Shown: positions 14,871-18,404 of the stretch, piece by piece | How positions within the stretch are numbered: position 1 is the first letter of the stretch | How the letters are laid out: every line of letters begins with the position of its first letter | Assembly: GCA_903923205.1 (NCBI GenBank) | Contig: CAIXXC010000488.1 | Location: 1 to 39,423, forward strand | Origin: an uncultured Rhodospirillales bacterium | GTDB taxonomy: Bacteria > Pseudomonadota > Alphaproteobacteria > ATCC43930 > CGMCC-115725 | Reading direction: 5' to 3' | DNA: 39,423 bases | The notes under the pieces: generated by a model | The model's database searches: none | What the model saw: the letters and a program-made list of their open reading frames with translations, nothing else | Told to the model about the DNA's origin: nothing | Made by a program: the position numbers and the translations under genes

Positions 14871-15251
14871 ATGCGAAGTCATCCAGTCTCAATCAAACGC
14901 CGTCTGACTGGCAACACGGGGTCATCGAAGCACTGGCGATCCTGGTACTCGGCTTCGAGTGCGGTCGCTTTGATGCTGACGAGTTGGGTGTGCCTTTTGC
15001 TGATGGCGTTGCAGCCACCCGCTAACGCCGCCGTCGTCGCCGCGATCTTTCCGCCCTGGTGGACGGGAAGAACTGCCCTTTCCGCTGCCGCTGCTGCTGG
15101 CACCGACATTATCCGGACGGGCAGCCTGCCTAATATTCTCATTCTTCATGTGTCGAGCCCGGAAAGCCTGGTTCGACTTCGTCACGCTGGCGCTTGGTTC
15201 ACGGCTGATCCAATCGCTCTCGGTGGTTGCCTTCGGAGAAATCAGATATGA
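14871..15251 (+). CDS. Small membrane-anchored protein with FPPWW motif
   Basis: A 126-residue protein of unknown function. A basic N-terminus (1-26) is followed by one hydrophobic segment (about 29-48, ending in a possible AxA site at ANA, 51-53), then a soluble part expected outside the inner membrane. Near the start of that part is FPPWW (60-64), then an Ala-rich helix, [14 protein letters not shown] (81-94), and a C-terminal [15 protein letters not shown] (106-120). I believe similar short unnamed proteins with FPPWW, RTG and GAW motifs exist in other alphaproteobacteria, but that is memory, not a search. Its stop overlaps the chemoreceptor start as ATGA (15248-15251), strong evidence that it is real and co-translated. 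The start is uncertain: ATG 14871 has no good ribosome binding site. Confidence 0.68.
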
Positions 15252-16720
15252 CAAAGACCGCATCGCCCAGTCTCGATCGTCTACAGGCGAGCGCCAGCAA
15301 GGGCCTGATCGTCTTCCTTTGGCTGAACGTCCTGCTGGTGCTTAGCATCGCATTGATTCGGGGGGGCGAGGTTACGCTGCCTCTATTGTTGGCTATTGCT
15401 CTCGCGGGCGCATCGACCGCGTCATGGTGGGGTGTCGGCAATGGGCTTTCGACTCGGCTGCTTGTCGCGGTTGCGGTTGTCGGGATGGTATCAGACGTCG
15501 TCTTCGAGATGGCCGGCAGTCCCTGGCAGGTCGACGCTCATATGTACTTTTTCGCCGTCCTTGCCGGGCTGGTCGCGTATTGCGATTTTCGCGTGATCCT
15601 TGCGGCGACGGTTGCGACGGCGCTTCATCATCTCAGCCTCAATTTCCTATTGCCGGCGGCGATCTATCCAGGAGGGGCGGATTTCTTCCGTGTTGTACTC
15701 CATGCCATTATTCTGGTTGGGGAAGCCGGTGTCTTGATCTGGTTGGCGCTGACCCTCAACCGTCTCATGACCGTCAGTGCAGAACACTTGGCTGAAGTCG
15801 AGGCGGCTCGCACTGCGGAAACCCGCGCCAACGCGGATCGTGCGTCTGCAAAAGAGGAAGCTGAGCGACGGGCGGCGGCGGCCACGGCGGCACTTGCCGA
15901 CGGGTTCGAGCGGGCGATCGGACAGATCGTGCTCCAGGTCGCAACGGCAGCCTCGAACATGCAGAATATGTCGGCCGCTATGAACGAGGCCGCGGCTGCA
16001 ACGACCGAGCGCGCCGAAAGTGTTGCGGTGGCGTCTGCCGAGGCCTCGGAGAATGTTTATACCGTCGCCTCGGCGACGCATGAGTTGTCGGGATCGATCA
16101 CGGAGATCAGCGAGCAGGTCAATCGGTCGACGGCGGTTGCTCGCAAGGCTGCCGAAGAGGCAGGAAGGACAACGGCAATCGTCGAAGGCCTGTCCGTTGC
16201 AGGACAGAAGATCGGCGAGGTCGTGACGCTGATCCGCAATATCGCCAGTCAAACGAATCTACTGGCACTGAACGCGACGATCGAAGCCGCGCGTGCCGGG
16301 GAGCATGGCAAGGGCTTTGCCGTGGTCGCCAGCGAGGTTAAGGCGTTGGCGAACCAGACCTCGATAGCCACCGAAGATATCGCGGGCCAGGTGCAGAGCA
16401 TTCAGGGTGCGACAGCAGAAGCAGTGTCGGCGATCCGGACGATTGATGGCACGATTTCGGAGGTGAACCAGATCTCGGCCATGATTGCAGCCGCGATCGA
16501 ACAGCAGGGTGCGGCTACGAGCAGTATCGCGGCCAATATCAACCAGGCATCGAAAGGGACGCAGGATGTCAGCTCCAATATCCGGGGTGTCACCGACGCC
16601 TCGGGCTCCGTCGGTCGTGCCGCGACGACGATGATGGGCGCATCGCGCGATCTTACCGGTTTGTCGGAGCAGCTTCGCGAGGAATTGGCGAAGTTCCTCC
16701 GGTCGATCCGCGCCGCGTAA
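15248..16720 (+). CDS. Methyl-accepting chemotaxis-like protein with polytopic membrane domain
   Basis: A 490-residue signalling protein. The start is set at ATG 15248, with GGAG about ten bases upstream and an ATGA overlap with the preceding small gene, rather than at an in-frame GTG-type start at 15227. The N-terminal half has about six transmembrane segments (roughly 19-37, 44-62, 69-88, 99-112, 115-137, 148-170) with the motif [13 protein letters not shown]...YCDFRVI...[13 protein letters not shown], and no large periplasmic ligand domain. A coiled stretch (175-225) leads to the signalling domain with the conserved hairpin tip [33 protein letters not shown], given here only as a recognised block. 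No HAMP domain or C-terminal NWETF-like pentapeptide is seen. It may sense a membrane or intramembrane cue, perhaps with its coupled partner (inference). Confidence 0.9.
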
Positions 16721-16740: not shown

Positions 16741-17991
16741 TCAATCACACGGGCAGCGGGTGCGGCGAGCCCGGAGGTAGGACCTGAGCGCAGGATCGCA
16801 TTCCAGTCCAATCGCGCGGTCGAAAGCGTCCGCCGCCTCGGCGTCGCGGCCGTCGCGAGCAAGAAGCTCTGCTCGGGCGGCCCAGTAGGGTTGATAGTCG
16901 GCCAGGCTTTTGTTGCCCCGTGCGATTTGGTCGAGTGCTGCGAGGCCATGAGATGATCCATGCACCTCGCCGATTGCTACCGCGCGATTGACCGCCACCA
17001 CGGGTGAGGCGACCATCGTCGCCAGGACATCATAGAACTGCAGGATCGCCGCCCAGTCGGTTCGCCCTGTATTACGGCGGGCCGCGTGAACGGATTGAAT
17101 CGCGGCTTCGATCTGAAACCGCCCGATTGTCCCGAGGCGACCGGCGCGCCACAGATGTTCCTCGGCTTGCTCGATCATGTCGGATTGCCATGCGCCTGTG
17201 TCCTGCTCCGAAAGTGGGACATAAACGCCGCCACTGCGACGTGCCGGGCGGCGCGCCTCGCCGTGCAGCATCAAGGCCAGTAGCCCAAGCGCCTCGGCCG
17301 ATTTAGGGAAAAAATCGGCGACCAGACTGCAGAGCCAGATCGCCTCGGTTGCCAGTTCGGGCCCGCCGCCCGGATCGGACCAGCCCCTAGCGTAGGCGGC
17401 GTAGATTGCCTGTAATACGCCATCGAGGCGCAGGGGCAACTCGTCGCGATCTGGCAGCCGCAAACTGATTCCGGCGAGTTTGATCTTCGCTTTGGCCCTC
17501 ACAAGCCGCTGCGCCATCGTCGCCGGTGATACCAGGAAGGCCGACGCTATCGTTGCCGCGTCGAAACCGAGGACCGTCTGCAGAATCAGAGGGGCATGCA
17601 GCCTCTGGTCGATGGCGGGGTGTGCGCACGCGAACATCAACGCAAGTCGTTCATCGGAGATCGCGGGATCGTTGGGGCGCGCCTGTGCCATGATTTCCGC
17701 GATCATCCCTAATTGGAGATGTGCCCCGTCATCACTAGCTTGGCGCCGGTTTTGGTCGATCTGCTTGCGTTTGGCCACCGTCAAGAGCCAGGCTTCCGGT
17801 TTGAGCGGTATGCCCGTCTCCGGCCAGACGGTCAGCGCCGCCGCAAAGGCCTCTGACAACGCGTCCTCTGCAGCCGCGACGTCGCGGGTGCGGGCGGAGA
17901 GAAAGGCGACGAGACGGCCATAACTTTGTCGGGCGACGACTGCCGCCGTCGCCCGGGAATCGTCACCATCCTGATTATTCAATCCCGGCAC
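16741..17991 (-). CDS. ECF42-type RNA polymerase sigma factor
   Basis: An extracytoplasmic-function sigma factor with a long C-terminal extension, the form found with YCII/DGPF proteins. Sigma region 2 is seen in VAAAEDALSEAFAAAL, the region-4 helix-turn-helix in TIASAFLVSPATMAQRLVRAKAKI, and the extension (about 190 to the end) has the family's DUF6596/TPR-like helices, for example AVNRAVAIGEVHG and AADAFDRAIGL. The frame is open to 18060, but the start is placed at GTG 17991, 14 bases after the YCII stop with GGCGG upstream, giving 416 residues; a later TTG (17982) is possible. The two genes are one operon; no anti-sigma factor is next to them, and in this group the C-terminal extension is thought to control activity. 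Confidence 0.88.
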   Translation of the reverse strand: MPGLNNQDGDDSRATAAVVARQSYGRLVAFLSARTRDVAAAEDALSEAFAAALTVWPETGIPLKPEAWLLTVAKRKQIDQNRRQASDDGAHLQLGMIAEIMAQARPNDPAISDERLALMFACAHPAIDQRLHAPLILQTVLGFDAATIASAFLVSPATMAQRLVRAKAKIKLAGISLRLPDRDELPLRLDGVLQAIYAAYARGWSDPGGGPELATEAIWLCSLVADFFPKSAEALGLLALMLHGEARRPARRSGGVYVPLSEQDTGAWQSDMIEQAEEHLWRAGRLGTIGRFQIEAAIQSVHAARRNTGRTDWAAILQFYDVLATMVASPVVAVNRAVAIGEVHGSSHGLAALDQIARGNKSLADYQPYWAARAELLARDGRDAEAADAFDRAIGLECDPALRSYLRARRTRCPCD

Positions 17992-18005
17992 AGAACCGCC
18001 GTGCC

Positions 18006-18353
18006 CTACATCGACCAGACCGGACGCACTTCTATGGTGCCATGCTGAGCGCCCGGACAACGCGCCGCCCAGACCAGGGCTGCGTCGAGGTCCGGAACCT
18101 CGACAAGATAGTAACCAGCGAGCTGCTCCTTGGTCTCCGCGTAGGGGCCGTCGAGGACTTCAGTTTTATCTTTTCTCACACGCACCGTGCTCGCGGTCGC
18201 CGACGGTTGCAGCCGATCTGCCCCCACCATGACGCCCGCCGCTTTCATCGCCTGGGTATAGGCGCCGTAGGCCGCGTACATTCTTTCGTTGTCCTCCTTG
18301 CTCGCGGTCTTGGAGTCAGCCTCGTTGCCATAGATCATCAAAAGATATTGCAT
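18006..18353 (-). CDS. YCII/DGPF-domain protein
   Basis: A 115-residue dimeric alpha-beta barrel-type protein with the DGPF-family signature DGPYAETKEQLAGYYLVEV and start MQYLLMIYGNE. Biochemical function is unknown; genes of this kind are the standard neighbours and presumed targets of ECF42 sigma factors. Three in-frame starts exist; ATG 18353 is chosen because GCGAGG lies six bases before it, while the ATG at 18359 is only one base from that site and 18380 has none. It precedes the sigma gene by 14 bases. Confidence 0.9.
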   Translation of the reverse strand: MQYLLMIYGNEADSKTASKEDNERMYAAYGAYTQAMKAAGVMVGADRLQPSATASTVRVRKDKTEVLDGPYAETKEQLAGYYLVEVPDLDAALVWAARCPGAQHGTIEVRPVWSM

Positions 18354-18404
18354 GGTCATCCTCGCCATCAGGTTCGACAACGCATCATGCGCTGCTTATC
18401 CTAT

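Follow-up and report, generated by a model that had tools for sequence, protein, structure and literature searches.

The window, the whole 39,423-nucleotide stretch of DNA analysed here, carries a small gene that overlaps the start of a chemoreceptor gene, and sequence comparison identifies the pair, at the genomic level, as a conserved two-gene receptor built from two unnamed protein families. We lean towards reading the two genes as one membrane receptor in two pieces, with the small partner at the periplasmic face and a plausible Cys/His site. The parts of this reading differ in strength: judged from the sequences, the small protein and the receptor are very probably partners, and the partner probably acts at the periplasmic face, while metal or redox chemistry of the cysteine and the histidines is proposed tentatively. 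A first-pass annotation of this DNA had proposed a split two-protein receptor; the conserved gene linkage upholds that proposal, but the exposed domain, which it suggested as a possible sensor, may instead be a structural subunit or one for metal or redox chemistry.

The gene pair and its two products

14871–15251, + strand: gene of the small partner protein, 126 aa (open reading frame; class-wide relatives; no Pfam or NCBIfam family)
15248–16720, + strand: chemoreceptor gene, 490 aa (PF00015 match, E 2.8e-27)
15248–15251, + strand: ATGA stop/start overlap of the two genes (read from the sequence)
15235–15238, + strand: GGAG, a ribosome-binding-like site for the receptor, within the end of the small gene (read from the sequence)

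The TGA of the small gene (15249–15251) overlaps the ATG of the receptor gene (15248–15250), and the GGAG lies 9 nt 5' of that ATG; the 126-residue reading frame and its ATGA overlap, as first annotated, are both borne out. Because a same-genus genome encodes the same small protein, up to its contig end and adjoining the same alcohol dehydrogenase, and because relatives are found across the class with E values of 1e-12 to 1e-22, the small reading frame is, on sequence conservation, a real gene. A 4-bp overlap is compatible with approximately 38 of 88 homologous pairs, a count biased upward by choosing the start codon nearest the stop; 4-bp overlaps are also present in annotated records, independent of that choice. 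The window genome encodes CheA (dimerisation domain PF02895, E 8.4e-16), so a pathway is available for the receptor to feed. Further along, at 16741–18380, lies a sigma-factor-like gene with an adjacent YCII-like gene on the minus strand, both named by eye.

14934–15008, + strand: predicted membrane-anchor helix, partner residues 22–46 (AlphaFold model)
15033–15230, + strand: predicted periplasmic beta-alpha-beta-beta-alpha-beta domain, partner residues 55–120, FPPWW to GGC (AlphaFold; ferredoxin-like by Foldseek, at the fold level)
15228–15230, + strand: codon of Cys120 (invariant in 89/89 aligned receptor-linked homologues)

The small protein is of no named family, as had been supposed: the partner and 41 relatives match no Pfam family, and the partner has no NCBIfam family and no PDB relative by sequence search. 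Weak Pfam matches to NTPase_P4 and Sdh_cyt fell below the cut-off, were not common to the relatives and were rejected. In the AlphaFold model, built with 42 relatives, residues 51–110 form a block with pLDDT of 91–98, followed by 83 at residues 111–120, and the helix at 22–46 agrees with the earlier description of a single-pass protein; signal-peptide cleavage between ANA and A may be an alternative to the anchor. A positive-inside test of this topology came out 30 of 56 for, 15 against and 11 tied, which gives it moderate support from sequence. Foldseek retrieved RNA-binding domains and subtilisin prosegments, a likeness at the level of the ferredoxin-like fold, with no significant PDB match. 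Protease inhibition was considered and rejected, since no gene in the neighbourhood fits it and the prosegment match is at the fold level. Across 92 unique pairs, Cys120 is present in all 89 aligned rows and a Cys occurs in the tail of all 92, and the partner surface is otherwise poorly conserved apart from GA(W). FPPWW is far less conserved than Cys120 (W63 is kept in 34/92) and was rejected as the key motif; FPPWW and IRTG, the motifs singled out in the first-pass annotation, are present in the protein, but they vary among homologues, and the invariant residue is Cys120.

15266–15799, + strand: six-helix membrane input domain, receptor residues 7–184, unnamed family (AlphaFold; no Pfam match)
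15539–15541, + strand: codon of His98, in the DxHM motif (invariant, 92/92)
15626–15631, + strand: codons of His127 and His128 (kept in 90/92 and 92/92)
15701–15703, + strand: codon of His152 (invariant, 92/92)
16136–16603, + strand: MCP signalling domain, receptor residues 297–452 (PF00015, MCPsignal, E 2.8e-27)

Six helices are predicted within the first 185 residues of the receptor, and the AlphaFold model of this domain, built with 50 relatives, likewise has six helices and no large loop (pLDDT 94.4, pTM 0.89). Pfam searches of the receptor at E≤1 gave no HAMP and no ligand-binding domain, in line with the earlier description of an input half that is polytopic without a periplasmic domain. 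No Pfam family matches the input domain (33 members searched at E≤0.1), which also has no PDB relative by sequence search and no significant Foldseek match in the PDB; the best Foldseek match, TMEM45A, has an E value of 0.74 and was set aside as not meaningful. Among the 92 pairs, the strictest conservation lies in this membrane domain rather than on the partner surface, and besides the histidines the receptors keep Asp96 (91), Arg148 (90), Gln94 (88) and Pro136 (88). From the helix order and the cytoplasmic output, we infer that the GxPWQxD and VFPxGxDxxR loops, together with the outer halves of helices 4–6, face the periplasm in the model. No haem or metal motif was recognised. Conservation of the intramembrane histidines suggests an active site in the receptor half as well.

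Linkage of the partner to the membrane input domain

The class-wide set comprised 385 genomes of Alphaproteobacteria. Scanning contigs with the single small protein gave no match; an alignment used as the query did. Relatives of the small protein at E≤0.001 are present in 43 of the 385 genomes. Inspection of the loci placed 34 of 47 small genes beside the same membrane domain, and at least 8 of the remaining places have an MFS transporter as neighbour. The search in the other direction, starting from the membrane domain, found 56 places in 49 genomes, of which 51 keep the histidines. The partner adjoins 49 of these 51 (30/30 of the first loci and 19 of the rest), which is the conserved gene pairing expected of a two-protein, or split, receptor. 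The two exceptions are an intact His-keeping receptor in a genome with no small-gene relative anywhere (G235) and a fragment of the domain with a truncated copy before it (G387). At the five places where the domain has diverged and has no histidines, the partner is adjacent in none; Fisher's exact test, by hand, gives approximately 5e-6 for the association of histidines and partner, computed over related genomes that are not independent. The first-pass annotation had looked to repeated linkage with this receptor type as support, and to mostly unlinked homologues or disrupted frames in relatives as refutation; the linkage appears from both search directions, and neither of the latter was found.

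A second, phylum-wide draw had the partner at all alphaproteobacterial loci from L127 to L154, and plasmid records contain the pair in 10 of 11, the small gene being called 'hypothetical protein' if annotated. An intact His-keeping receptor of Paracoccus (L178) has no partner that we found. Diverged receptors at L113, L115–L118 and L162 have lost the membrane histidines, and the partner gene is also absent there.

The domain is fused to a HisKA/HATPase histidine kinase at one locus (L018) and to a hybrid kinase at another (L180), and both retain the partner. Because pairs also occur with histidine-kinase outputs, the partner, on this comparison of loci, follows the membrane domain and not the chemotaxis module. 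At L021, L022 and L126 the two genes stand in the opposite order, the small gene following the receptor gene; L126 is a tandem of two such receptors followed by one small partner gene. Mutual information between the two proteins (92 pairs) showed no periplasmic enrichment, and its top Cys–His scores were set aside as evidence because they come from near-invariant columns.

The small family is also wider than the first reading supposed, which had the receptor linkage right but not the related clade that pairs with MFS transporters. When 56 of the small proteins were placed in a tree, the 11 that are not linked to receptors (7 with MFS genes, 4 with others) fell on one branch with support of 97/93, separate from nearly all receptor-linked ones. 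In the transporter-linked branch the small gene stands directly downstream of the MFS gene, whose product is similar, below family cut-offs, to oxalate/formate and monocarboxylate carriers. At eight loci (L054–L058, L064, L070, L071) the transporters upstream of the small-protein relatives have a conserved FFVCGFH..HLP. This branch also keeps the Cys, so conservation of that residue extends beyond the partners of the His receptor. The MFS-linked small proteins are possible transporter accessory subunits, and the small family may have a general accessory role.

Thiol neighbours, a proposed mechanism and alternatives

A phylum-wide search found relatives of the input domain in other Pseudomonadota, apparently gamma- and betaproteobacteria, most of which keep the histidines and have neither the WQxD loop nor the small protein. 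At L157, L158 and L159 a loop is inserted after helix 1, SPDGFILEGHM replaces PWQxDxHM and no partner was found; L157 has a weak C-terminal match to the zinc-binding CZB domain (E 4e-4). Another thiol-bearing membrane or periplasmic protein is adjacent in 18 of 36 outside-class loci that keep the histidines and have no WQxD loop, several of them near-replicates, and none is adjacent in the other half. Twelve loci have a DUF6436-like neighbour (among those scanned, Pfam confirmed two; one is divergent), three have SCO1/SenC (one scanned) and three a single-helix Cys micropeptide of roughly 30–60 aa. Specifically, the DUF6436-like thioredoxin-type gene is directly coupled to the receptor gene, upstream of it in L163, L171 and L183 and downstream in L175, L184, L185, L187, L188, L190, L192, L194 and L195. 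The SCO1/SenC-type gene is directly 5' of the receptor in L196, L198 and L199, with no cytochrome oxidase cluster in the 6-kb stretch, and the micropeptides, with a W-x-YS-x-x-ALGW pattern and one terminal Cys, are encoded just upstream of the receptors in L161, L170 and L186. Additionally, in nine genomes of one outside-class family the sole DUF6436 gene is the receptor neighbour. The recurrence of thiol neighbours suggests metal or redox chemistry.

We therefore sketch how such a two-part receptor might work. The polytopic piece would consist of the six-helix input domain fused to the chemotaxis signalling hairpin, and the small piece of a one-helix anchor and a ferredoxin-like domain in the periplasm, which may dock on the GxPWQxD and VFPxGxDxxR loops. 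Cys120 and the membrane His cluster could then form one redox- or metal-responsive site, for copper, haem or another metal, and a change there would reach the CheA pathway by way of the last helix. This proposed Cys/His site is the best-supported hypothesis. A broader form of the idea is somewhat more doubtful: that these receptors are a widespread two-gene metal/redox chemoreceptor class, in which a membrane His cluster is completed or controlled by the Cys of a separate periplasmic partner, and unrelated thiol proteins (ferredoxin-like small protein, DUF6436, SCO1/SenC or Cys micropeptide) fill the partner role by lineage.

The transporter-linked branch invites another reading, in which the small protein helps polytopic membrane proteins to assemble or stay stable (the receptor here, the MFS protein in the sister branch) and stands outside sensing; translational coupling would suit a stoichiometric chaperone. 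However, the His-lacking receptors are still polytopic and have no partner, so the presence of the partner tracks the histidine site, not topology, and we regard an assembly factor as unlikely. It is more improbable still that ligand is bound and sensed by the small periplasmic domain, with the six-helix domain acting as a transmitter. The small domain is the sole sizeable extracytoplasmic one of the pair and has a compact predicted fold, yet its surface shows little conservation beyond GA(W) and the Cys, the membrane domain is the stricter of the two, and relatives outside the class that keep the histidines do without it. As for shared transcription alone, a short, overlapping gene could be an unrelated passenger or a translational leader; adjacency at 49/51 places class-wide, reversed order at three loci and conservation at the protein level bring this close to refuted.

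In many chemoreceptors no sensing domain can be recognised. The two-part receptor favoured here ties two undescribed protein families to each other and points to residues likely to matter, namely Cys120 of the partner and Asp96, His98, His127, His128 and His152 of the receptor. For DUF6436, a family of unknown function, its place next to a receptor gene is a first functional context. The open-licence papers searched contained no description of the pair, and the two-part sensor is apparently undescribed.

Comparison with known systems

The window receptor shares the signalling hairpin of methyl-accepting chemotaxis proteins (PF00015), and CheA is present in the genome. Unlike canonical periplasmic-sensing members, it matches no periplasmic ligand domain or HAMP and has instead a six-helix input and a separate partner. 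MHYT is a six-helix domain with conserved His and Met near the outer face and is a proposed metal sensor; the window domain is alike in its six helices and conserved His, but its 33 members give no MHYT Pfam match at E≤0.1. DUF6436 (PF20029) and SCO1/SenC (PF02630) are membrane-anchored thiol proteins beside related receptors outside the class. Both are thioredoxin-like, whereas the window partner has another predicted fold and matches neither family (PF20029 in the partner and 41 relatives, PF02630 in the partner). PA2867 of P. aeruginosa, another chemoreceptor, may be similar to the window receptor. Its ligand domain is given as Unknown (PMC10653921). Sensory rhodopsin II–HtrII complexes are also two-protein receptors, with a polytopic membrane sensor that passes its signal to a chemotaxis transducer (PMC12917780). 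Their polytopic component is a protein of its own and holds retinal; in the window pair the polytopic component and the transducer are a single protein, and a small single-pass protein stands apart.
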